A stretch of DNA of 36,003 nucleotides, from the NCBI GenBank assembly GCA_003153775.1, contig PMBI01000094.1, forward strand, positions 34,956 through 70,958. The letters are read 5' to 3'. The translations under genes and the position numbers were made by a program. The notes beneath the pieces are model-generated. The model had not been told where the DNA came from. It did no database searches and saw only the letters and a program-made list of their open reading frames with translations. Source of the DNA: Syntrophaceae bacterium. GTDB taxonomy: Bacteria > Desulfobacterota > Syntrophia > Syntrophales > UBA2185. Of this stretch, positions 13,152-25,819 are shown one piece after another (position 1 is the first letter of the stretch; every line of letters starts with the position of its first letter).

Positions 13152-13208
13152 CGCAAACACCTTCGCTTGCCGCGGAGAGCTTCAACGCAGCGGCCAAGAG
13201 GTTTAATT

Positions 13209-14027
13209 ATGATTTATCAGCCTGAAGACGGCGCCATCTACGATGATCTCGTCAGCTTCTTTCGTGACTACGGGGAGAGATCGAGACCCATAGGCCAACT
13301 GATGCTGGCCGTGGGAAAATATTTTCTGGGATCTCCCTATGCGGGCCGTACGCTGGAGAGGGATGGCAGGGAGGCCCTCGTGATAAATTTAAGGGAATTT
13401 GACTGCTTCACCTTTGTGGAAAATTGCGTGGTCTTGGCGGGGCTGTTAAGCAAAGGCAATTCCCACTTCAAGAGCTATGCTGCGCAGCTGAAGAAAGTCC
13501 GTTACCGCGGCGGCATATTAAAGGGATATTCCTCGCGCCTGCATTATTTTTCCGACTGGCTCTACGACAACGAGAAGAAAGGGATTGTTATAGATGTTAC
13601 AAGCAGGTGCGGCGGGGAACCATTTCGAAAGAATTTCAATTTTATGACAAGGCATAGGGAAGATTATCCCGCCTTGGGCATGGAGAAATCTTATCGAGAT
13701 ATGGCTGCAATTGAAAGACGTCTGTCCAGACGATTGCTGCATAGTATCCCGAAGGCTGCGTTAGGAAAGTCGCAGAGTGCGGTTGAGAACGGGGATTTGA
13801 TTGCGCTTACCACGGGCATCGAGGGACTGGATGTCGTGCACGTCGGCCTCGCCGTCTATCTTAAAGGCAGGATTCATCTCCTGCATGCATCGGAGGTGGA
13901 GAAAATGGTTGTCATCTCCGATCTCACCCTGCATCAATACATTTCGAGACGAAAGATGATGACCGGAATTATGGTTGGACGCGTTATCCCGACTTATCAA
14001 AATGATGGTAGTCCCTCTTCGGCCTGA
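13209..14027 (+). CDS. DUF1460 protein, N-acetylmuramoyl-L-alanine amidase-like (NlpC/P60-type fold)
   Basis: A 272-residue protein; the ATG at 13209 has AAGAGG upstream, and the frame's earlier start is unsupported. It carries the DUF1460 hallmarks: REFDCFTFVEN (63-72) with probable nucleophile Cys66, SSRLHYFSDWLYDN (108-121), ENGDLIALTT, and LDVVHVGLAV with probable catalytic His211, then HLLHAS. Structures of this family led to the annotation as peptidoglycan amidase-like cysteine hydrolases. Members are commonly exported, but this one begins MIYQPEDGAIYDDL with no signal peptide or lipobox, pointing to a cytoplasmic role on imported fragments, unless exported by another route. Its last 44 bases overlap the end of the convergent M15 peptidase gene. 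Confidence 0.8.
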   Translation: MIYQPEDGAIYDDLVSFFRDYGERSRPIGQLMLAVGKYFLGSPYAGRTLERDGREALVINLREFDCFTFVENCVVLAGLLSKGNSHFKSYAAQLKKVRYRGGILKGYSSRLHYFSDWLYDNEKKGIVIDVTSRCGGEPFRKNFNFMTRHREDYPALGMEKSYRDMAAIERRLSRRLLHSIPKAALGKSQSAVENGDLIALTTGIEGLDVVHVGLAVYLKGRIHLLHASEVEKMVVISDLTLHQYISRRKMMTGIMVGRVIPTYQNDGSPSSA

Positions 14028-14535
14028 AATGTCCCCCCCAGCCCCATCCCCGCTTCAGGAATTCTTTCACTACGGGATGTGAATCGTCAAGAGTTCCCGC
14101 ACTCCCTGGAACATAGACGGCGCCAGGAGGATCGAACCGGCCGTCCTCATCTATGACAGGATTGAAATAAGGGTTGATGTCCACGGCCCTTCCGAACGCG
14201 TGGTTTGATAACCTGTTCGTGCCCAGAACAACTCGGTAGTTAAAGGCGGATGTATTATTGTCCGCCATAGAGAGGTCATCAGACCAGTCGTACTTGACGA
14301 TCGGCACAATCTGAAAAACAGGAAATTCCGTCCGCTCCATGAGCGCAAAAATTTCCACGATGTCCGTTTTCACCTCCTGGTGAATCACGAGTTGTCCCTG
14401 ATGCAGCCGGCCGTCGATTGAGCGGTAGCGCACGTCGACGAGGCATAATTTGTCAATTATCTCCCGGGGCGCTTTTGTCCCGGCGGTCGCCTCCGCAAAT
14501 GTCATCCTGCTGTCGATAATGGTTGTCTTTTTCAT
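13984..14535 (-). CDS. M15-family metallopeptidase (Ply500/CwlK-like peptidoglycan peptidase)
   Basis: A 183-residue protein with both zinc motifs of the M15 fold: SNHAFGRAVDIN (110-121, ligands His112 and Asp119) and a C-terminal GWGWGGHFRPKRDYHHFDK with ligand His177 or His178. The GG and HFD arrangement resembles the L-alanyl-D-glutamate peptidase branch (Ply500, CwlK) more than VanY carboxypeptidases. No signal peptide is present (MKKTTIIDSRMTFAEATAG is not hydrophobic). The gene starts 5 nt after the DUF4922 stop with no visible Shine-Dalgarno, suggesting translational coupling. The codons for the active-site HHFD lie within the 44-bp overlap with the DUF1460 gene. Confidence 0.85.
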   Translation of the reverse strand: MKKTTIIDSRMTFAEATAGTKAPREIIDKLCLVDVRYRSIDGRLHQGQLVIHQEVKTDIVEIFALMERTEFPVFQIVPIVKYDWSDDLSMADNNTSAFNYRVVLGTNRLSNHAFGRAVDINPYFNPVIDEDGRFDPPGAVYVPGSAGTLDDSHPVVKEFLKRGWGWGGHFRPKRDYHHFDKSG

Positions 14536-14540
14536 AAGCG

Positions 14541-15548
14541 TCAGAAGGGCAGAGCTGCCGATATTTTTTGCACAGTTTCCTCGTCAACGGAGACTTCCGC
14601 GTAAATTGTCCTGATCAATTCCTCATGGACTCTGTCGAAATCCTTTCCTATTGGTGTTATGATGATGCCTCCCATCTCCACCATTCCGGGTGAGATTAAA
14701 ATCCTTTCGTCGCCGGGCAGGAAATAGACGGAGGGACGATGCCTTTGCCGCGGAAAAATCATAACCTGCCATCTATTTCCGGCATAAGAGCAAAAGAGGT
14801 TCATCCGCGGTTCTGCCGGTGATGCGAGGACGCTTTTCATGGCCGAGACAATGTTTGTCAGGGCGTCACCGATAGTGGTGCAATCCTCTCCTTCCAGAAT
14901 AATTACTTCCCTCCCGAGATGTCTTGCCCTGAAAAGGGAAGTGGAGTGAATGCATTTGACGAATTCCAGCCTTGTCCTGTCTTTGATTTCTTCTTCAATC
15001 GGCAGTACCCCCCGGGAAGTCGCCTGAAAGTGCAGGTGGTCAGGCGCGGAGGCGCCGCTTTCCGGGCCGTTATAAAACACATTGAAATCCGGGCTGAAGT
15101 CCTTTGCCATTTTAAGAAATTTCGATACCATACCTTCAAATGACTGGGGGCAATGCATAATTTGCGCAATAGTAAAGTGCTCCGGACAGATAGGAAAGGG
15201 ATTGCAGAGGACAATGAAATCCCCCCTGTATAAGATGCCGCGCTGCGGCTCGGGGAGATTTTCGAGACAGAGAAAGCAAGGTCTCTTTTCTATGGATTTT
15301 TGATCAAGCGGGGCAGTGGTGCTCTTGATCCTTCCGGGATTATGGTGGAGCCTCACCGAAAAACCGTTGCAGCGGAGTTCCTTTACCTGCACACTTGCCA
15401 GGGCTTTATATCCCAGAGAAAGATCGGGCCATGAGGCCTTTTGCTCTGCGAGGAGATTGTGGCAGAGCGCGGGAAGAGATGGAGCGGGTGTCTTTCCGTC
15501 AAATGACGCCGATATCTTCTTTTGCAGAAGCACATCCATATCCGTCAT
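14541..15548 (-). CDS. DUF4922 protein, HIT/GalT-like nucleotide phosphorylase or transferase
   Basis: A 335-residue cytoplasmic protein. A CFLC pair (91-94) is followed by NPFPICPEHFTI (116-127) and then GASAPDHLHFQA (165-176). The HLHFQ motif closely resembles that of plant and animal GDP-L-galactose/GDP-D-glucose phosphorylases (VTC2/GDPGP) within the HIT/GalT superfamily, where the His forms a nucleotidyl intermediate. A nucleotide-sugar phosphorylase or nucleotidyltransferase is therefore likely; the substrate is unknown. The ATG lies one base after the TGA of the GT2 gene (TGAGATG), so translation is coupled. I recall DUF4922 genes near SpoIID/LytB and AmgK/MurU genes in Bacteroidetes; that is memory, not checked. 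Confidence 0.7.
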   Translation of the reverse strand: MTDMDVLLQKKISASFDGKTPAPSLPALCHNLLAEQKASWPDLSLGYKALASVQVKELRCNGFSVRLHHNPGRIKSTTAPLDQKSIEKRPCFLCLENLPEPQRGILYRGDFIVLCNPFPICPEHFTIAQIMHCPQSFEGMVSKFLKMAKDFSPDFNVFYNGPESGASAPDHLHFQATSRGVLPIEEEIKDRTRLEFVKCIHSTSLFRARHLGREVIILEGEDCTTIGDALTNIVSAMKSVLASPAEPRMNLFCSYAGNRWQVMIFPRQRHRPSVYFLPGDERILISPGMVEMGGIIITPIGKDFDRVHEELIRTIYAEVSVDEETVQKISAALPF

Positions 15549-15549
15549 C

Positions 15550-17031
15550 TCATCTTGCCTTCAGCTTCCGGCGTGCCATGATTTCAACAGTTCTAATCTT
15601 GTCTTTGAACGCATCATGGCGATTCCTCATCTCTATGGAGATGCGGGCGTCCGTATTGCCCGCCCACCGGCGGCACAGATAGAGGCTCTCGTAAATCCTG
15701 CCTATGCGATAGTCTCTTGATAATCTGAGAGCCATTGCATAGTCTTCCCCATAACCCACATTGAGGAAACCGATTTTACGAAGAAGCGCCGTATAAAAGG
15801 CGCGCGGTGCTCCCAGTCCATTGACACGCAAGGCGTTGTTGCGTCCGTTGTCATCCGTCCATTCCCTGTGGTCTATTATGCCGGGTGGAATCGTCTGCAA
15901 AGATTCATTGACGAGTGTGTAAGAACCGATGACCATGGCAAAATCTCCGCTTCTCATCGCGTCGATGAGCTTCTGCAATGTCCCCGGGCTCTCATAAAGA
16001 TCGTCTGAATCCAATTGAACGGCGTAGCGGCCGCAGAGGTCAGAAAAGACTGCTTCGTTCCAGCAACCGCCGATGGTGAGGTCATGTCTTAAAGGGGTAA
16101 TATGCTTCACGGCGGGATTGCTGCCGGCAAGTTCATTCAGGATCGCAGTTGTTCCGTCAGTGGAATGATTGTCCACAACAATCACATTGTACGGGAAGTC
16201 CGTCTCCTGCGCAAGGGCGCTATGCACTGCGTCGGTGATTGTATGCACCCGGTTCCGCACGGGTATTACGACACTTGCCTCAACAGGAAAATCACACTGA
16301 GATCGAGGTAAATATTTAAAGCGCGGTTCCAGGAAGGCGCCGATACGTTTTAAATGCTCTGTTGCGACCAGTTCCATTTCCTTTTGTACCGCTTGGTTCT
16401 CGTGAGCGACATAATTGAACTGATCCTCACCCTCAGATCCGACTGCGTCCGTATTTGCGACTGATTTTTTCTTCGTGTAGAGAAACTCCTGAATGTGGAA
16501 AAGACTGTGGTCGACGGAAACTTTCAAGCGCAGGTCATACAATCCTGCATAAACGACGCCAGGTATAGGGCCATATTTCTTTAATGCCCGTTGTATTGCA
16601 GAGATAGAGAATAGGATCAGGCATCCGAAATCAAATTGGTCACGGATGCTTCCCAGTTGACAGTCATTGACGGGATGTTCCACGAGGTCGCCCTGTCCTC
16701 CTTCCAGGTAGTCCGAGTAGACCATGCCTGAATCTGTAGATTCCGCTACATCAATAAAGCGTTCGAGCGTGGCGGCCGGAATCTCTATTTCCGCGGGCTC
16801 TGTGATTATCATAAGAAAATCTGTCTTCATGTTTTCTATGAGTTTGTTCAAGGCCTCGCCCGAGGCCAGGGATGCGGCGTTTATAAACTTGCACTTCGGC
16901 TGCGGCGGCTTGAAGGCGCCCTTATGGAGGACAATGACTTCCTCAATCAGAGGTGATTGAATGAAGACTTGGAGAGTCTTTTCAAAGCCCGACTGCAAAC
17001 TGAGAGGCATGGCGATGGTCAGCGTGCTCAT
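15550..17031 (-). CDS. Family 2 glycosyltransferase with an extra N-terminal GT-A-like half
   Basis: A 493-residue protein. The C-terminal half (about 250-480) is a clear GT2 domain: VEASVVIPVRNRVHTITDAVHSAL, VIVVDNHSTDGT (283-294), the metal-binding QLDSDD (339-344) and GEDYAMALRLSRDYRIGRI with its acidic ED (429-430). The N-terminal half (1-240) repeats a weaker version of the fold (IEEVIVLHKG, MKTDFLMIITEP, SGMVYSDYLEGG, DFGCLILFSISAIQRAL) and may be a degenerate second GT-A domain. No transmembrane segments are present, so it acts in the cytosol or at the membrane surface. It leads the GT2-DUF4922-M15 minus-strand operon. Donor and acceptor are unknown. Confidence 0.85.
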   Translation of the reverse strand: MSTLTIAMPLSLQSGFEKTLQVFIQSPLIEEVIVLHKGAFKPPQPKCKFINAASLASGEALNKLIENMKTDFLMIITEPAEIEIPAATLERFIDVAESTDSGMVYSDYLEGGQGDLVEHPVNDCQLGSIRDQFDFGCLILFSISAIQRALKKYGPIPGVVYAGLYDLRLKVSVDHSLFHIQEFLYTKKKSVANTDAVGSEGEDQFNYVAHENQAVQKEMELVATEHLKRIGAFLEPRFKYLPRSQCDFPVEASVVIPVRNRVHTITDAVHSALAQETDFPYNVIVVDNHSTDGTTAILNELAGSNPAVKHITPLRHDLTIGGCWNEAVFSDLCGRYAVQLDSDDLYESPGTLQKLIDAMRSGDFAMVIGSYTLVNESLQTIPPGIIDHREWTDDNGRNNALRVNGLGAPRAFYTALLRKIGFLNVGYGEDYAMALRLSRDYRIGRIYESLYLCRRWAGNTDARISIEMRNRHDAFKDKIRTVEIMARRKLKAR

Positions 17032-17638: not shown

Positions 17639-17962
17639 ATGTCGAAATATCGTGATCCTGATTCAATGGATGACAGGGATGTCAAGTTAGATCCTGATGC
17701 GGTCCTTCAAGAACCAAAGATGTATCGGGTTCTACTTCATAATGATCATTATACGACAATGGAGTTTGTCGTCGAAGTTCTGATACTTGTGTTCCATAAG
17801 CCGGCGGCGGAGGCCACCAAAATCATGCTCGACGTCCACAAGAAAGGGGCAGGTGCATGTGGTGTTTATACCTACGATATCGCCGCTACGAAGGTAGCCC
17901 AGGTGCATACGATGGCGAAATTAAGAGAATTCCCTCTGAAATGTTCATTGGAAGAGGCCTGA
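17639..17962 (+). CDS. clpS: ClpS, ClpA adaptor / N-degron recognin
   Basis: A 107-residue protein of the usual ClpS length. A flexible N-terminal arm leads into the core KMYRVLLHNDHYTTMEFVVEVL (about 28-49), which carries the conserved Asn-Asp that grips the alpha-amino group of N-degrons and the Met gate. VHKKGAGACGVYTYDIAATKVAQV holds the conserved His of the binding pocket and the family's second half. The position after HND is His instead of the common Asp. ClpS delivers proteins with Leu, Phe, Tyr or Trp at the N-terminus to ClpAP. It is separated by 15 nt from clpA and has its own strong promoter. Confidence 0.95.
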   Translation: MSKYRDPDSMDDRDVKLDPDAVLQEPKMYRVLLHNDHYTTMEFVVEVLILVFHKPAAEATKIMLDVHKKGAGACGVYTYDIAATKVAQVHTMAKLREFPLKCSLEEA

Positions 17963-17977
17963 CCGACAGGGGGAATA

Positions 17978-20257
17978 ATGAAGATAAGTGAAAGTCTGAA
18001 TCAAATCATCATGGCTGCGTATGCCGAGGCCAATACGCGCTCTCATGAGTTTGTAACGCCGGAGCACCTTCTTTATGCCGCGCTTTTCTTTGATGATGGG
18101 TCTGACATCGTACAAAGATGCGGGGGCGATCCGGAACATCTAAAAAGAGTGTTGGCAAAGCATCTGCGTGAGGGCAATCCGGTTGTGGAGGGAGCTCAAT
18201 CCGTCCAGTCGCTGGGTTTTCAAAATGTCTTGGAGCGCGCGGTATGGCATACGACCTCTGCGCAGAAAGATATTGTCGAATTGGGAGATGTTCTGGTTTC
18301 TATTCTTGATGAAAAAGGGTCCTATGCTTCATTCTTCCTGAAGAAAGAGGGCATCACTCGACTTTCCCTGCTTAACTATATCTCTCACGGAGTCTCCGTT
18401 ATTCCCGATACGACGGAAGTGCAAAGGCGGGATAAGAAGCGGGAGGAAAGTGAGACTGAGCAGGAGTCCAAGGAAAAGGATACTGATCAAAGCAAAATAC
18501 TAAAGTCATTCACGATAGAACTGACGGCGAAGGCGAAAGCAGGGGAGATGGATCCCCTGATCGGCAGGGAGGATGTGCTCGAGCGGACCATCCAGGTCCT
18601 TTGCCGGCGATATAAGAACAACCCCGTCCATGTCGGTGAGCCGGGAGTGGGAAAAACGGCCATAACGGAAGGGCTGGCGCAGCTCATTGCCGGCGGGAAT
18701 GTCCCAAAGCGCCTGAAGGATTCGAAGATTTACGCCTTGGACATGGGCGCCATAATTGCCGGCACCAGATTCAGGGGTGATTTCGAAGAGCGCATGAAGC
18801 GCGTAATAGCTGAACTTCAGAGACAGGAAAAAACAATCCTCTTCATTGATGAGATTCATAATATCGTTGGCGCCGGGGCTGTTTCAGGGGGATCCCTCGA
18901 TGCTTCGAATATCCTGAAACCGGCGCTCGCTTCCGGCAAACTCCGGTGTATCGGCTCCACTACATATGACGAGTACCGTAAGTATTTTGAGAAGGATGGA
19001 GCCCTTTCGCGCCGGTTCCAAAAGATCGAGATAATGGAACCGACAACGGACGACACCGTGAAGATTCTTGAGGGCATCAAGAAAAGGTACGAAGAATACC
19101 ATCGCGTATCATATACGGAAGACGCCATCCGCGCGGCAGCGGAATTATCCGATAAGTATATCAATGACCGGAGGCTACCCGATAAGGCTATCGATGTGAT
19201 CGATGAAGCCGGCGCCTTGGCTAATATGAAGGATGCCGATGAGGGTATAGAGAAGGTGGTCGATATTCATAATATCGAAGCGGTGATTGCAAAAATCGCG
19301 AGAATTCCGGAAAAGAGTGTTTCTTCGTCGGAGTTGGACAGGCTTAAGGATCTGGAGGCAAGTCTCAAAAGCAGGATCTTCGGGCAGGATAAGGCGATTG
19401 GGCTGGTCGTGGAGGCAATCAAGCGTTCACGTGCAGGTTTCCGCGAGCCCCACAAACCCATAGCCTCCCTCTTATTTGTGGGACCAACGGGTGTGGGAAA
19501 GACCGAACTGGCGCGGCAGTTGGCGCTGACTCTCGATGTGCCGCTGAACCGCTACGATATGAGTGAATATCAGGAAAAGCACACCGTTGCAAAGTTTGTG
19601 GGAGCGCCCCCGGGGTATGTGGGTTACGAAGAGGGGGGCCTACTCACTGAAGCAATCAGGAAAAATCCCCATTCCGTCCTGCTCCTTGATGAGATCGAGA
19701 AGGCTCATGCCGATATTTTCAATACATTGCTGCAGGTCATGGACTACGCGACATTGACGGATAACAACGGAAAGAAAGCCGATTTTCGCAATGTCGTCGT
19801 ACTAATGACATCTAATGCCGGTGCGCGGGAGATCGGCAGGCAGATGATCGGATTCGAGGCTAAAAGCGTCAACAGCGACGCCGTATTTACGGCCGTGGAC
19901 AAGATCTTTTCGCCTGAGTTCCGAAACCGTCTTGATGGGGTTGTTAACTTCAACGGCCTTACCCACGAGGTCGTGCTTATGATTGTAAAAAAGGCGATCG
20001 GCGAATTCGCAGTTCAATTGCGGGAGAAGAACGTGAATCTTCAGGTTACCGACCTGTGTTACGAATGGCTTGCTGGCAAAGGCTACTCCGAGGAGTTCGG
20101 AGCAAGAGAGATCGCCCGTCTGATTCAGGACAAGGTAAAACGGTTTTTTGTGGACGAGGTGCTTTTCGGGAAACTGCAAAAGGGCGGTATTGCCCTCGTG
20201 GATATGGAATGTGATGACGTCGTCGTCCGTGTCCTTGAAGAATGCGAGGTTGCTTAG
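17978..20257 (+). CDS. clpA: ClpA, ATP-dependent Clp protease ATPase subunit
   Basis: A 759-residue class I Clp/Hsp100 unfoldase, the standard ClpA length. It has the N-terminal Clp repeat domain that docks ClpS (1-140), a charged linker (about 148-173), AAA-1 with Walker A GEPGVGKT (220-227) and Walker B ILFIDEIH (287-294), and AAA-2 with GPTGVGKT near 504 and [10 protein letters not shown]. The IGF tripeptide around 623-625 (RQMIGFEAK) is the loop that docks on ClpP. There is no ClpB-type middle coiled-coil. AGGGGG lies nine bases before the ATG, and it is cotranscribed with clpS. clpP itself is not in the window. Confidence 0.96.
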
Positions 20258-20358
20258 CTGCTGCTCGAAGAACATATTTTCTTTTGCCAAAACCTCAGCG
20301 TCATGGCTTAACGTCTCGTGGTGCCAAAAGTGCTATGGGAGTTCGGTGCTAAAATTCC

Positions 20359-21069
20359 ATGCCGATTTTTCGACTGGTTGACGAAGTAATCTTTCCTCCC
20401 ATTGATCTGACATCGGGAAATGGCATCCTTGCAGTTGGCGGCGACCTTTTGCCGCAGAGACTGATTGCCGCCTACAGTGAGGGCATTTTCCCATGGTATT
20501 CGGAAGGCGAGCCCATCATCTGGTGGTCTCCCGACCCGCGATTCATATTATTCCTAAACGAACTCAGGGTCTCGCGAAGCATGATGAAAGTGCTGCGGCG
20601 GGGGACCTTTCGAATTACGTATGATCAAAAATTTCGTGAAGTCGTTCTGTCGTGTCAAGGATTGCGGAGGAAACAGAAGGGCACCTGGATTACGGATGAC
20701 ATGCTTGAGGCATACTGCAAGCTGCATGAGCTTGGAATTGCCCATTCCGCAGAGGCCTGGCATGAGGGACAACTCGTCGGCGGCATCTACGGCGTTTCGC
20801 TCGGGCGGTGCTTTTTCGGCGAGTCCATGTTTTCCATTATGAGCAACGCATCAAAGGCGGCGTTGATCAATCTGGTTCACAAATTAGAGGAACTCAAATT
20901 TGCGTTCCTGGATTGCCAGGTTTATACGGCCCACATGGAAAGCCTGGGCGCTCGCTTCATTTCCCGCGGTAAGTTCATGGGTCTTCTAAAATCAGGGTTG
21001 GAACATGAGACCATGCAGGGCAATTGGGGAGTCATGCCGGAGTTCAGAGACGGTAAGGCAGTTTCGTAA
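20359..21069 (+). CDS. aat: Leucyl/phenylalanyl-tRNA-protein transferase
   Basis: A 236-residue enzyme with all the family's landmarks: GILAVGGDLLPQRLIAAYSEGIFPW (23-47), IIWWSPDPRFIL, KGTWITDDMLEAY, GGIYGVSLGRCFFGESMFS (about 142-160) and LDCQVYTAHMESLGA (about 190-204). It transfers Leu or Phe from charged tRNA to proteins beginning with Arg or Lys, creating primary N-degrons for ClpS-ClpAP. It lies 101 nt after clpA with no terminator seen between and a weak ribosome-binding region, so it probably shares the clp transcript. The DCQ...SLGA and GIFPW motifs leave little doubt. Confidence 0.96.
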   Translation: MPIFRLVDEVIFPPIDLTSGNGILAVGGDLLPQRLIAAYSEGIFPWYSEGEPIIWWSPDPRFILFLNELRVSRSMMKVLRRGTFRITYDQKFREVVLSCQGLRRKQKGTWITDDMLEAYCKLHELGIAHSAEAWHEGQLVGGIYGVSLGRCFFGESMFSIMSNASKAALINLVHKLEELKFAFLDCQVYTAHMESLGARFISRGKFMGLLKSGLEHETMQGNWGVMPEFRDGKAVS

Positions 21070-22469: not shown

Positions 22470-22517
22470 ATGAAGGGATTATCCGGTACTCATGATATAC
22501 GGCCGAGAGACCGCTGA
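22470..22517 (+). pseudogene. 15-codon ORF resembling the start of histidyl-tRNA synthetase
   Basis: A strong AGGAGG ribosome-binding site is followed by ATG and the peptide MKGLSGTHDIRPRDR, then stop. The GTHDI motif resembles the conserved N-terminal RGTxDILP of HisS/HisZ. It overlaps the last codons of the amgK-like gene on the other strand. It may be a relic, a leader peptide or chance. Confidence 0.2.
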
Positions 22518-23581
22518 CACTTCATGGCCAGATTTTTCAGCAATGGCAGACGTTTTGCGCGGGAAGCGCTGTCAACGAGATTTGCGACGCCCCTCGGAAT
22601 GTGGGCGAGAAATTCCGCAAGGCCGCTCTTCAACCCGAGGAATCCGTAAGCGCCGAGGGCCTGCATGAGGCGCTGTGACGATGCGTCACGGAATCTATCC
22701 TGAAATCCCGGCCAGTCGGTTCTCAGAATATTCGTCTTAACCTGCGAGCCCGTGATGACCTTATCGCCGGAGGGTGTATAGTTCTGCGACTTATCTGTGT
22801 CGCCGCTAGCCGGAAGCTGGTAGTAATATAAAAGCAGCTCCATACGTTCATTCTCCGGCAGAAGGACATAGGGATCGTAGAGCAGTGATCCGAGGTCGTA
22901 AAATAGATTGCCGAAGCGCATGCCCTGAAAGTCTATGAATACCGGCCGGTCATTGCATATCATCACGTTCTGAGACTGCAGATCTCTGTGCACGAGGGTC
23001 GGTTTTACATCTTCGAGACGCGCCGAGAGGCTCGTTAGTTCGTCCTCTAAATCGTTCGCATCCGATGGATCGAGCTTGATGCGGCAGACGCCGTGTACAA
23101 AATTCTCGAGGAAGTAATCGCGCTCCCATCGGTAAAGGTCGGAACTGAATCCTTCCATTAAGGGTACTTTATCGAAGGGGAAATCTTCGGCCGGAAAGGC
23201 ATGGAGTCTGTATGCGACGGAGAGTGTCGCGCGGTAATAGGCACTTCTTCTTGTCCGCGATTCATTCCAGCAGGAGCGGAGATCTCTGTCTCCCAGGTCT
23301 TCCATGACAATGAAGCCCTTGAGAGGATCGTGTGCCATGATCCGGGGGACGGGGACATGGATTGTGAGGAGGAAGTCGGCAATCGCTGCATAGTAGCCGT
23401 TCTCCTTGCGAGCTTGATCGTAACACATGGAGACGACAGAGCCGTGACCTTCATATCTGATCCGGTGGAAAGACCTGCCTGACCCACGTTTGGCCAAAGG
23501 CATGCTCGTCAGTGCATCTGAGCTTCCAAGCCCGAGTGCCTGGCGCACGAATCTGAGCATTTCATCATTAAGGTGCGTCAT
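22490..23581 (-). CDS. amgK: AmgK-like sugar kinase (N-acetylmuramate anomeric kinase), aminoglycoside phosphotransferase fold
   Basis: A 363-residue cytoplasmic kinase of the APH fold. It shows RGSGRSFHRIRYEG (nucleotide loop, about 32-45), IVMEDLGDRDL (91-101), the catalytic Brenner loop LVHRDLQSQNVM (196-207; Asp200, Asn205) and FIDFQGMRFGNLFYDLGSLLYDP with the metal-binding Asp217, the last stretch being characteristic of AmgK. AmgK phosphorylates MurNAc (and GlcNAc) at C1 in the salvage route that bypasses MurA. A MurU-like nucleotidyltransferase gene lies 87 nt upstream on the same strand, the known partner, which supports the assignment. A segment near 255-275 (SGDTDKSQNYTPSGDK) looks like an extra loop. 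Confidence 0.8.
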   Translation of the reverse strand: MTHLNDEMLRFVRQALGLGSSDALTSMPLAKRGSGRSFHRIRYEGHGSVVSMCYDQARKENGYYAAIADFLLTIHVPVPRIMAHDPLKGFIVMEDLGDRDLRSCWNESRTRRSAYYRATLSVAYRLHAFPAEDFPFDKVPLMEGFSSDLYRWERDYFLENFVHGVCRIKLDPSDANDLEDELTSLSARLEDVKPTLVHRDLQSQNVMICNDRPVFIDFQGMRFGNLFYDLGSLLYDPYVLLPENERMELLLYYYQLPASGDTDKSQNYTPSGDKVITGSQVKTNILRTDWPGFQDRFRDASSQRLMQALGAYGFLGLKSGLAEFLAHIPRGVANLVDSASRAKRLPLLKNLAMKCQRSLGRIS

Positions 23582-23668: not shown

Positions 23669-24391
23669 CTACCTCTGTCCCCCGAGCATCGCATTTATTT
23701 TTTCATATTCTGCTACGGATCCGATATCATACCAGCGGCCTTCATCAATGATTATCCCAGCCACCGATCCAGGCTGTTCCTTGATCATGCTGATGAAGAT
23801 AGGGACAACCGATTCCGTGCGGCCCGCTCTCAGGCGTCGGAGAAAGATTTTCTCCACGATATAGATGCCCGTAAAAAGACAGCTCGTAACGCCTTTGTCG
23901 CCCAGTGTATGCCGCAGATCGCATATCTCGCCTTCGGCATTCAGATTGACGTTCAAAGGGGAGCCGCTGCTTCTGAGAGCCAGGGTAACTTCCTTCCTCT
24001 TCGCATAGTGTTCATCGATGAGATGAGCAAGCGGCAGGTCCGTAAAGGTGTCGCCATTGTAAACGAGGATCGTTTCGTCGTCAGCAAGGAGATCTTCGAT
24101 GTTCTTTATGCCGCCTGCGGTATCGAGAAGCACGGGTTCATGGCGGAAAATCATGGGGACTCCCCGCCATTGCCGATCCGGGAATACCTTATTGTATGAC
24201 CCAGCAAAGTAATGGGTATTGATGATGAAGCGTTCTATGCCGGCTGATATGAGATGATCCATGGCATAGGTAATCATCGGACGTCCGCCTGCGGGCAAGA
24301 GCGGTTTCGGACAGTCGTCTGTTAAAGGGCGCAGGCGGGTTCCCAGGCCGGCGCCGAGAATGAAAGCTGTCTTGATAGATGATTTCCGCAT
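23669..24391 (-). CDS. murU: MurU-like sugar-1-phosphate nucleotidyltransferase
   Basis: A 240-residue enzyme with the nucleotidyltransferase signature GAGLGTRLRPLT (13-24), CPKPLLPAGGRPM (28-39) and the metal-binding VYNGDTF (Asp114). The short length, lacking the GlmU or Rfb C-terminal helix domains, matches MurU, which makes UDP-MurNAc from MurNAc-1-phosphate. The neighbouring amgK-like gene supports this over mannose-1-phosphate guanylyltransferase, which cannot be ruled out from sequence alone. Its ATG lies nine bases after the SpoIID-like gene's TGA, implying one transcript in the order spoIID-like, murU, amgK. Confidence 0.8.
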   Translation of the reverse strand: MRKSSIKTAFILGAGLGTRLRPLTDDCPKPLLPAGGRPMITYAMDHLISAGIERFIINTHYFAGSYNKVFPDRQWRGVPMIFRHEPVLLDTAGGIKNIEDLLADDETILVYNGDTFTDLPLAHLIDEHYAKRKEVTLALRSSGSPLNVNLNAEGEICDLRHTLGDKGVTSCLFTGIYIVEKIFLRRLRAGRTESVVPIFISMIKEQPGSVAGIIIDEGRWYDIGSVAEYEKINAMLGGQR

Positions 24392-24400
24392 AGTCTTTCT

Positions 24401-25732
24401 TCAGTAGAGTTTCTGAAGCTCCGCACCACAAAAGTAGTGTTTCAAGATGGATTCGGCGGTGAAGCCTTTAAGAGCCATTACTGCCGCCCCTATCTGGCAT
24501 AAACCGACGCCATGTCCCCATCCGGCGCCGTGCAGGATAAAGCGGACTGGAAAGCCGGATGTATCATTCTCCGCAGATACGACAAAGGCGCTGCTGTACA
24601 GATGGCTCCGGGAAAGCCAGCGGCGGATCTCAAGTTCCTTGCCTATGGTCAGGGTTCTTTTCGATCCGGCGATCTTCAGCCTGACTATGCGGCCGGAGGG
24701 GCCCCGCTCAAGGGGAGTGAGGGAAAGGAGATTGCCGAAGTCCATTCCCGATTTCTCACGGATAATCTCCTCCAGCTCTAAGCGTGTATACGTCACCTTC
24801 CAGCGGAAAAAGTCAGTCGTTTCCTGATCGAAGGACGGGAGAATCCGCCGCAGGGTATTTGCGTCTTTGGTATTGCAGTACGCCTCCTGATATCTGAGAA
24901 TCCATTGCCTGGCTTCTTCTTCCGTGCGGATCGGGTCATGAGCGACGGCAGAGTCCGAAACGGACGTGAGATAAGGAACGGTGATATTCTCCCAAGTATT
25001 TGCGAAATTATCAGTGAGACCGCCGCAGGCCTTATGATAGCGGGCATCGCAGATATTGTTGTCATAGACGAGAAACAGGCCGCGCGTCCTCTCAACTGCC
25101 TCCCGGGCGTTTTCGGAGATCATCCGGGTGATACCCTGATACCTCTGGCAATGATCATCCGCACAGACATCGAAAAGTGTGTGGTCAACCCTATGGTAAT
25201 ACCTGACAAACTCTTCAGCTTGCAAGGCCGGGCCGGGCGATTCATTTTCGGTATGTCCTGCATTTCCGATAGTTCGGAGCGTGGACATAAGCCAGCTACG
25301 TGACGCGACTGCGTGGGCCTTGAGGAATTCCGGCGCCGCTTCAGCGCTCATTTCAGAGGAAACGACGCTCGCCAAATAATCTTCCAAAGGAATTATATTG
25401 ATGGCAGTGAGAGTATCATTTTTGTCGCGGATAAGTTTCAGCTCTCCCCGGAATGTTTGCTCCTGTTTTCTTTCCCAGTGAAAATTTACGCCTATCGTCA
25501 CGTCAAGGAGAGCGAAGGTTGCGTTGTCGAGAGGGGCACAGTGGATTTCCTTATCATGGATTATCTCATTTCCCGCAGCATCGGAAAGAATAATGCGACC
25601 CTTCCCCACGCGCGCACTGAACCCTCCGCTGAAACTTGCGGTGCCATTGAGCAGGAACGGGCCTTTCAACGTCCCTGCGACTTCCCTATATGCCTGCAGG
25701 ATGCCTACTTTGAGTATCGGTTCTTTTTCCAT
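24401..25732 (-). CDS. SpoIID/LytB-domain protein, probably cytosolic glycan-strand hydrolase
   Basis: About 443 residues from the ATG at 25732; an upstream in-frame TTG at 25810 would sit almost on the predicted transcription start and is disfavoured. The SpoIID core is clear: IPLEDYLASVVSSEMS (114-129) with the probable catalytic Glu127, FLKAHAVASRSWLM (136-149), FDVCADDHCQRYQG, RYHKACGGLTDNFANTW and the C-terminal HGAGWGHGVGLCQIGA (about 401-416). SpoIID of Bacillus is a lytic transglycosylase for peptide-free glycan. Unlike most members there is no signal peptide or membrane anchor, so the protein should be cytoplasmic. Its position ahead of murU and amgK suggests it trims recovered wall glycans for salvage. 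Confidence 0.8.
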   Translation of the reverse strand: MEKEPILKVGILQAYREVAGTLKGPFLLNGTASFSGGFSARVGKGRIILSDAAGNEIIHDKEIHCAPLDNATFALLDVTIGVNFHWERKQEQTFRGELKLIRDKNDTLTAINIIPLEDYLASVVSSEMSAEAAPEFLKAHAVASRSWLMSTLRTIGNAGHTENESPGPALQAEEFVRYYHRVDHTLFDVCADDHCQRYQGITRMISENAREAVERTRGLFLVYDNNICDARYHKACGGLTDNFANTWENITVPYLTSVSDSAVAHDPIRTEEEARQWILRYQEAYCNTKDANTLRRILPSFDQETTDFFRWKVTYTRLELEEIIREKSGMDFGNLLSLTPLERGPSGRIVRLKIAGSKRTLTIGKELEIRRWLSRSHLYSSAFVVSAENDTSGFPVRFILHGAGWGHGVGLCQIGAAVMALKGFTAESILKHYFCGAELQKLY

Positions 25733-25819
25733 AGCGCGATGAACAGCGGATCGTGTGCCAGCCCGGCCCCAAGGTAATGATGCCTTCCGTTCCTCAATCC
25801 TGTACCTCAAAAGCGGTTT

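Follow-up and report, generated by a model that had tools for sequence, protein, structure and literature searches.

A conserved glycosyltransferase-DUF4922 gene pair in probable peptidoglycan-salvage loci of Syntrophaceae and distant bacteria

Results

The GT2 glycosyltransferase and DUF4922 genes analyzed here very probably belong to the machinery of cell-wall sugar salvage. The analysis shows that they are linked and sometimes fused, that salvage genes surround them, and that their predicted folds and catalytic residues are those of nucleotidyl- and glycosyl-transferring enzymes. The window, that is, the whole 36,003-nt stretch of DNA under analysis, comes from a Syntrophaceae bacterium (GCA_003153775.1, contig PMBI01000094.1, 34,956-70,958, forward strand). 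Both open reading frames of the preliminary description, GT2 (15550..17031, minus strand, 493 aa) and DUF4922 (14541..15548, minus strand, 335 aa), are present in it, and the one-base gap reported between them can be read directly: the GT2 stop codon TGA occupies 15552-15550, a single base follows at 15549 and the DUF4922 ATG spans 15548-15546, a spacing that suggests translational coupling. The third gene of the run begins 5 bp beyond the DUF4922 stop and encodes an M15 peptidase (13984..14535, minus strand; PF13539, 9.5e-17) with no signal peptide by hydropathy. The gene for an AmiA-like amidase-type protein (13167..14027, plus strand; PF07313, 4.9e-48) is convergent with it and overlaps it by 44 bp.

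Three further minus-strand genes of the window lie 5 kb from the pair. The predicted MurNAc/GlcNAc 1-kinase (22490..23581; APH, PF01636) is AmgK-like only, since its best NCBIfam model, AmgK (NF045759), scores 64.3 bits against a cut-off of 550, and the nucleotidyltransferase (23669..24391; PF00483) is likewise MurU-like only, with 121.7 bits for its best model, MurU (NF045761), against 250. The SpoIID/LytB-domain protein (24401..25810; PF08486, 8.4e-24) scores above the cut-off of TIGR02669 (170.6 versus 83.3 bits) and under that of the stage II sporulation protein D equivalog, TIGR02870 (132.9 versus 234.75 bits); hydropathy reveals no signal peptide, and the protein is on this basis predicted to be cytosolic.

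Predicted structures and active sites

In a profile search, the only Pfam match of the DUF4922 product is DUF4922 itself (PF16269, 178.5 bits versus a curated cut-off of 23.6; 9.4e-53). The solved structure nearest to its AF2 model (pLDDT 96.7) is that of Apa2, the yeast Ap4A phosphorylase (4i5t; VIA Z 22.7, 271 aligned residues, rmsd 3.2; also 4i5v and 4i5w). The two have a whole-chain fold in common and align along a YN-x-GP-x-SG-x-S and DH-x-H-x-Q stretch, in which HLHFQ falls against DHKHLQ of Apa2, but they are only 14% identical, and the DUF4922 protein is bacterial and has a CxxC pair and a GT2 partner. ADP-glucose phosphorylase At5g18200 (Z 10.3) and GalT (Z 8.6-9.3) come next, with the same HIT-superfamily fold (Z 8.6-10.3) but a weaker overall match than Apa2. 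Both possess an HxHxQ site, and we know of no link of either to glycosyltransferases or wall salvage. Among these fold relatives, Apa2 and ADP-glucose phosphorylase are nucleotide phosphorylases.

The HLHFQ motif noted previously occupies residues 171-175 (15024..15038, minus strand), and its H171, H173 and Q175 are identical in 68/68 aligned relatives. The structure prediction and GalT comparison proposed earlier have thus found the nucleotidyl-histidine site present and not lost, and the Apa2/GalT fold agrees with the assignment of the protein to the nucleotidyl-transfer enzymes of the HIT/GalT superfamily, H173 being, by analogy, the predicted nucleophile. Residues C91, C94, H124 and H132 are kept in the same 68/68 relatives. 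The two cysteines, in the sequence CFLC (15267..15278, minus strand), form a candidate zinc pair as in GalT, and the CxxC together with histidine could match the zinc site of that enzyme.

The earlier label of VTC2-like is only partly right, its backing being at the level of the superfamily. In excerpts of the plant literature, GDP-L-galactose phosphorylase (PLN03103) and the DUF4922 superfamily are assigned to one and the same superfamily, cl14728 (PMC9871823), or plant GGP proteins are counted among the members of the DUF4922 superfamily (PMC11047344). Structurally, however, Apa2 is closest, ahead of ADP-glucose phosphorylase and GalT, and no GDPGP structure is among the PDB matches listed. 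VTC2/GDPGP, which shares cl14728 with DUF4922 by the cited placement, belongs to the eukaryotic ascorbate pathway.

The GT2 protein (PF00535, 74.2 bits versus a cut-off of 23.3; 1.5e-20) is matched by Pfam within residues 253-397 only, and its model (pLDDT 91.8) has two GT-A-like lobes. Chondroitin polymerase K4CP (2z86/2z87), with two GT-A domains per chain, is the best match by both sequence and Foldseek, and aligns across both lobes (residues 1-493, 400 aligned, rmsd 21.6), the high rmsd perhaps arising from a different lobe orientation. Judged on this whole-chain predicted model, the double GT-A architecture first suggested for the protein appears to hold. K4CP is a polymer synthase, whereas the GT2 of the window has a DUF4922 partner and an N-terminal lobe that Pfam GT2 models do not recognize. 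TarP/TarS, 6p61 and WrtF are also among the nearest structures, which include UDP-sugar enzymes. The C-terminal lobe presents the full residue set of an inverting GT2 (DSDD, ED), comprising the metal/donor motif DSDD at residues 341-344 (16000..16011, minus strand), and D341, D343, D344, E429 and D430 are kept in 62/62 relatives.

Conservation and gene context of the pair

Stretch counts were taken from tblastn instead of ORF picking, because the latter mislabels some high-GC loci. GT2 is present in 76/80 distant DUF4922 stretches and in all 30 fetched same-order DUF4922 loci, and hence its adjacency to DUF4922 is not due to chance; the two genes are fused in 10/110 loci, two of which (L006 and L031) look like one genome. 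The neighborhood survey suggested in the preliminary description has thus revealed a conserved linkage. This bears on the notion that DUF4922 is a housekeeping nucleotide phosphorylase, breaking down Ap4A or, like VTC2/GDPGP, stray GDP/ADP-sugars, and that its position among salvage genes is incidental. Although Apa2 is its nearest solved structure by both profile and fold, such a role is highly improbable, because the linkage to GT2 and salvage genes spans Deltaproteobacteria-labelled, Ignavibacteria, Bacteroidota and Acidobacteria-type contigs and extends to gene fusion.

Genes near DUF4922 in the 80 stretches code for SpoIID (40), AmpG (39), BadF kinase (25), MurQ (14), NamZ (14), M15 (13, in all of which it adjoins DUF4922), AmiA-like (12), AmgK-like (6) and MurU-like (6) proteins. 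This recurring context, in which AmpG, MurQ, NamZ, amidases and GlcNAc/MurNAc kinases accompany a SpoIID that lacks a signal peptide, is one of cytosolic peptidoglycan salvage and fits the initial guess that the pair recovers sugars for cell-wall salvage; control of nucleotide-sugar supply, proposed alongside it, finds no support in this analysis. A role in capsule or S-layer glycans was rejected, as no export or polymerization gene recurs beside the pair. Full-text searching for DUF4922 returned plant GGP papers only, and among the papers listed none assigns a function to either member of the pair in such salvage operons.

Two other readings were weighed. In the first, DUF4922 would act like GalT, swapping uridylyl groups between UDP-GlcNAc and MurNAc-1-P so that UDP-MurNAc becomes available to wall synthesis, while GT2 would catalyze a connected step. 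The fold relation to GalT, the HxHxQ site and the nearby AmgK-like genes are consistent with this exchange, but MurU-like genes of the same loci (6/80) would carry out the UDP-MurNAc step and the closest fold is that of a phosphorylase, not GalT (Z 22.7 versus about 9), which makes it a very remote prospect. In the second, both enzymes would work in the synthetic direction, DUF4922 forming an NDP-sugar from salvaged sugar-1-phosphate and NDP, and GT2 consuming it to make, as part of the salvage regulon, a signal molecule or a soluble glycoside. GT2 does keep the usual donor and base residues, NDP cycling works equally in the forward direction, and an AmgK-like kinase, which would supply sugar-1-phosphate, adjoins GT2 in L044 and L070. 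We nonetheless deem synthesis unlikely: no acceptor-making, export or membrane polymerization gene recurs beside the pair, and the Bacteroidota and Ignavibacteria clusters, having BadF-type kinases, would lack a local source of 1-phosphate, since MurK of Tannerella forsythia is described in excerpts of PMC10465942 as yielding a 6-phosphate.

Distribution of AmpG, GH3 and AnmK

The genome of the window has no match to GH3 (PF00933), the canonical NagZ route, and encodes outside the window (G000:C77) an AmpG (TIGR00901, 498.4 bits versus a cut-off of 350), the importer of GlcNAc-(anh)MurNAc. Among 60 relatives, those with and without DUF4922 differ in the presence of AmpG (30/33 versus 8/27), AmgK-like (32/33 versus 7/27) and GH3 (0/33 versus 10/27) proteins. 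The glycosidase searches, which covered GH3 and GH20, detected GH3 (NagZ) in 0/38 relatives carrying AmpG and GH20 in 0/60, and AnmK is above cut-off in 0/60. In four of the eight AmpG-positive, DUF4922-negative genomes the contig breaks off within GT2, and in G048 the order SpoIID-AmpG-MurU-AmgK-GT2 is followed by no DUF4922. The 10 GH3-bearing relatives, spread over four families, are also devoid of AmpG, so that the mutual exclusion of GH3 and DUF4922/AmpG may mirror which lineages use AmpG import and which do not.

The AnmK and cytosolic-SpoIID surveys of distant genomes covered 50 of the 80 loci (leaving out L056, L060, L089, L104, L106, L095, L102 and the Deltaproteobacteria-labelled loci), with cytosolic and exported SpoIID told apart by hit length and not by N-termini. 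AnmK is above cut-off in 25/50 of these DUF4922 genomes, which weakens the idea of the pair as an AnmK substitute everywhere. In L067, L080 and L049 (truncated), a GH3 without signal peptide lies 34-812 bp past DUF4922 (182.8 in L067, against a NagZ cut-off of 207). With a NagZ-like cytosolic GH3 beside it, the pair cannot be the sole NagZ in these two or three distant loci, and its role as a strict NagZ substitute everywhere is likewise weakened. The ORF cluster labelled GH3 is a mixture of GH3 and serine hydrolases; most other intact GH3 proteins near the pair look exported by their N-termini and were not counted as NagZ.

No clear cytosolic SpoIID is present in the genomes of L067, L080 and L049, so it may be SpoIID, and not the pair, that stands in for NagZ and splits the imported disaccharide. 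The pair would then open anhMurNAc, GT2 in reverse using UDP to give UDP-MurNAc and DUF4922 converting this to MurNAc-1-P. Three observations speak for this scheme: a cytosolic GH3 occupies the position of SpoIID in L067, L080 and, probably, L049; AnmK is not above cut-off in any of the 60 relatives; and T. forsythia uses GlcNAc-anhMurNAc without a predicted AnmK (excerpts of PMC7670621). The scheme seems improbable, however, because the 25/50 distant genomes with AnmK include all three with the GH3 swap, and because known SpoIID is described in excerpts of PMC9928106 as a lytic transglycosylase/muramidase, cutting MurNAc-GlcNAc rather than GlcNAc-MurNAc bonds.

Discussion

The loci described here share AmpG, AmgK-like, MurU-like, amidase and peptidase genes with the AmpG/NagZ/AnmK and AmgK/MurU recycling systems. 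In contrast to canonical AmpG/NagZ/AnmK recycling, genomes with AmpG in the taxonomic order of the window have neither NagZ nor AnmK, and carry a cytosolic SpoIID and GT2-DUF4922 instead. In the scheme that we favor, GlcNAc-(anh)MurNAc would enter through AmpG, amidase and peptidase would strip off the peptides, and the inverting GT2, acting in reverse, would convert GlcNAc-beta-MurNAc and UDP to UDP-alpha-GlcNAc and MurNAc or anhMurNAc. Run backwards alone, a GT2 works uphill, and this, like the G048 locus without DUF4922 and the GH3 genes beside the pair in L067, L080 and L049, speaks against the scheme. DUF4922, via a covalent H173-UMP, would turn UDP-GlcNAc and Pi into GlcNAc-1-P and UDP and, because UDP would cycle between both enzymes, the net reaction would be phosphorolysis of the wall disaccharide, the job of NagZ, with the bond energy kept as GlcNAc-1-P. 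The cytosolic SpoIID would afterwards act on the anhydro-MurNAc end, opening or trimming it, and MurNAc would be taken by AmgK/MurU-like or BadF kinase/MurQ enzymes.

In this scheme the direction of the reaction and the involvement of UDP, of GlcNAc and of the disaccharide as substrate are all inferred. That GT2 and DUF4922 act together in the cytosol to salvage peptidoglycan sugars by these steps as a whole falls somewhat short of being probable, and the exact chemistry, in which reverse GT2 and UDP-GlcNAc phosphorolysis by DUF4922 together replace NagZ, is put forward more tentatively. The most far-reaching version, a UDP-shuttled phosphorylase of anaerobes in which two enzymes, a reverse Leloir GT2 and an NDP-sugar phosphorylase of the HIT superfamily, fused in some loci, would use UDP catalytically and replace NagZ, is rather doubtful.

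The best-described counterpart is found in T. forsythia, whose order Tanf_08345-08385 (GT2, next gene, lytB/SpoIID, ampG, ybbC/NamZ, murTKQ) is that of the Bacteroidota clusters analyzed here. According to excerpts of PMC5388701, ampG is cotranscribed as one of nine genes and directly preceded by 'gtf, gtf, lytB', and both gtf genes are given without function there; from its position, Tanf_08355 ('gtf') would be DUF4922. Excerpts of PMC7670621 report that growth on GlcNAc-MurNAc and GlcNAc-anhMurNAc requires AmpG, that no AnmK is predicted, and that in Tris cell extract GlcNAc-MurNAc builds up over 20 h and MurNAc is also produced, the latter of which could come from NamZ.

The DUF4922 family thereby gains a context that it previously lacked, a widespread cell-wall salvage island common to Syntrophales-type bacteria, Ignavibacteria, and gut and oral Bacteroidota. 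In AnmK-less organisms such as T. forsythia, the pair provides named candidates for the intracellular breakdown of GlcNAc-MurNAc and GlcNAc-anhMurNAc and, if the reverse-glycosyltransferase reading is true, it would represent a new route for glycoside phosphorolysis without a dedicated phosphorylase.

Organization and conservation of the GT2-DUF4922 pair

The GT2 gene (15550-17031), the DUF4922 gene (14541-15548; PF16269, 9.4e-53) and an M15 peptidase gene (13984-14535; PF13539) form a minus-strand run, spaced 1 and 5 bp apart, and a convergent plus-strand AmiA-like gene (13167-14027; PF07313) overlaps the M15 gene by 44 bp. A second minus-strand group, encoding SpoIID (24401-25810) and MurU-like (23669-24391) and AmgK-like (22490-23581) proteins, the latter two so termed because their scores fall below the NCBIfam equivalog cut-offs, lies about 5 kb away. 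Between the two groups we place a row of what are presumably the ClpS, ClpA and Aat genes of the N-degron pathway (17639-21069). A 405-aa protein encoded at 21118-22335 matches nucleoside diphosphate kinase (PF00334) in three segments. Since a simple hydropathy test detected no signal-like N-terminal stretch in any salvage-set protein of the window, the set reads as cytosolic from its sequences; the genome encodes AmpG, scoring over the cut-off, on another contig.

PF16269 is present in 33 of 60 relatives (own genome counted), and all 30 fetched loci have a GT2 homologue in the corresponding position. A contig scan, with at least 572 relatives confirmed, yielded 80 further DUF4922 loci from Syntrophales and other Deltaproteobacteria-labelled contigs, Ignavibacteria, Bacteroidota and Acidobacteria-type records. 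By tblastn, GT2 was found in 76 of these 80 stretches, lying at most 400 bp upstream of DUF4922 on the same strand in 60; no GT2 was detected in two (L093, L103), and in L041 and L104 no more than about 500 bp separate the DUF4922 match from the start of the contig or stretch. ORF calling placed DUF4922 directly after GT2 in 56 cases (gap of 30 bp or less in 39), and in 10 of 110 loci both share one uninterrupted frame, fusions that argue for a working pair. Two fused loci, L006 and L031, have the same junction and equally long contigs and are probably one genome. An AmiA-like gene is inserted between GT2 and DUF4922 in L062 and L086. In L032, L037, L038 and L041 a gene that ORF clustering labelled as a possible glycosyltransferase immediately precedes DUF4922; it separates the pair in the first three, and in L038 it is a GNAT acetyltransferase.

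Association with peptidoglycan salvage

The gene neighbourhood of the pair is firmly one of peptidoglycan salvage. The 80 stretches contain SpoIID (40), AmpG (39), a BadF-type kinase (25), MurQ (14), NamZ (14), M15 (13), AmiA-like (12), AmgK-like (6) and MurU-like (6) genes. The order is SpoIID, MurU-like, AmgK-like, GT2, DUF4922 in L044, and in Bacteroides ihuae (L087) golvesin/xanthan-lyase-like, metallophosphoesterase, GT2, DUF4922, SpoIID, AmpG, NamZ, GlcD-like FAD oxidoreductase, DUF5009-like, BadF kinase and MurQ, where the DUF5009-like and MurQ names are our presumption. The GlcD/D-2-hydroxyacid dehydrogenase-like FAD and Fe-S protein (L087:14877-17744; also L075, L085, L090, L102 and L110) clusters with MurQ, and may oxidise the D-lactate that MurQ frees.

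SpoIID lacks a signal peptide, with 1 of 36 cluster members above the hydropathy threshold versus 17 of 18 for NamZ. Such SpoIID/LytB proteins, encoded in the window (24401-25810) and in L032-L110, form a family associated with AmpG, and a cytosolic location is unexpected for a lytic transglycosylase-type enzyme.

The genes xanthan lyase, gtf, gtf, lytB, ampG, ybbC and murTKQ of Tannerella forsythia are reported to form one transcript (PMC5388701), in the same gene order as the Bacteroidota clusters compared here; by this likeness, we infer that the second gtf is DUF4922. Another study states that AnmK was not predicted in this species, that its anhMurNAc strategy 'remains to be explored', and that soluble extract kept 20 h in Tris accumulated GlcNAc-MurNAc as main disaccharide, plus MurNAc (PMC7670621). 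This build-up fits, and does not prove, a disaccharide-splitting enzyme short of a scarce cofactor.

Among the 60 relatives, with p-values that ignore relatedness, AmpG occurs in 30/33 genomes with DUF4922 versus 8/27 without (Fisher, 1.6e-6; only 18 of 38 AmpG matches score above the TIGR00901 cut-off), AmgK-like in 32/33 versus 7/27 (3.7e-9) and GH3 in 0/33 versus 10/27 (1.1e-4), the GH3 genomes comprising four families, one with both kinds. GH3 is likewise found in 0/38 AmpG genomes versus 10/22 others (8.6e-6), and neither GH20 nor AnmK over cut-off was detected in any of the 60. Hence, in this order AmpG import accompanies the pair in most genomes sampled and never occurs alongside a GH3 or GH20 hexosaminidase. 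Eight AmpG genomes lack DUF4922: in four (G002, G005, G007, G057) GT2 is broken at a contig end, and three show no GT2 gene of the pair type. G048 carries the run SpoIID-AmpG-MurU-AmgK-GT2 with no DUF4922 behind it (L192, G048:C14:12000-22972), the next gene being, we assume, PolX-like.

Predicted activities and proposed mechanism

The DUF4922 model (AF2, pLDDT 96.7) finds its best solved match in yeast Apa2 (profile 4.5e-5, Foldseek 2.5e-11, VIA Z 22.7), followed in VIA Z by DUF4931 (11.6), ADP-glucose phosphorylase (10.3) and GalT (8.6-9.3); all 68 aligned sequences share C91, C94, H124, H132, H171, H173, Q175, R267 and R271. For GT2 (pLDDT 91.8), whose PF00535 match is limited to residues 253-397, the nearest structures are K4CP, TarP/TarS, 6p61, WrtF and heparosan synthase, and D341, D343, D344, E429 and D430 are invariant in 62 sequences. 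Given these intact conserved sites and fold matches, both enzymes look active, GT2 apparently forming or using NDP-sugars and DUF4922 seemingly acting on nucleotidyl groups through phosphorolysis or transfer.

Reversal of a glycosyltransferase is by itself uphill, and net glycoside phosphorolysis is about thermoneutral. We propose that the inverting GT2 might run in reverse, converting beta-linked GlcNAc to UDP-alpha-GlcNAc, and that the phosphorylase would pull the reaction by making GlcNAc-1-P and giving back UDP; shuttling of UDP between the sites would make sense of the fusions and gene overlap. As a guess, SpoIID could open the anhydro end, yielding free MurNAc for the kinases that need it; a studied relative is described as a lytic transglycosylase/muramidase (PMC9928106).

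Against this chemistry, a GH3 gene without signal peptide directly follows DUF4922 in L067 (10991-12064) and L080 (11054-12133), and a truncated one in L049 (5509-5874), so that in these genomes the pair cannot be alone in splitting the disaccharide. These three genomes carry AnmK and showed no clear cytosolic SpoIID, and the exchange suggests that it may be SpoIID and NagZ that substitute for each other. AnmK also occurs in 25 of 50 distant DUF4922 genomes. In light of these loci and the AnmK occurrence, we regard the salvage role as firm and the specific chemistry as tentative. Among the papers listed by full-text literature searches, none assigned a function to bacterial DUF4922. The setting of the pair is a variant of known recycling, and its proposed chemistry would be new.
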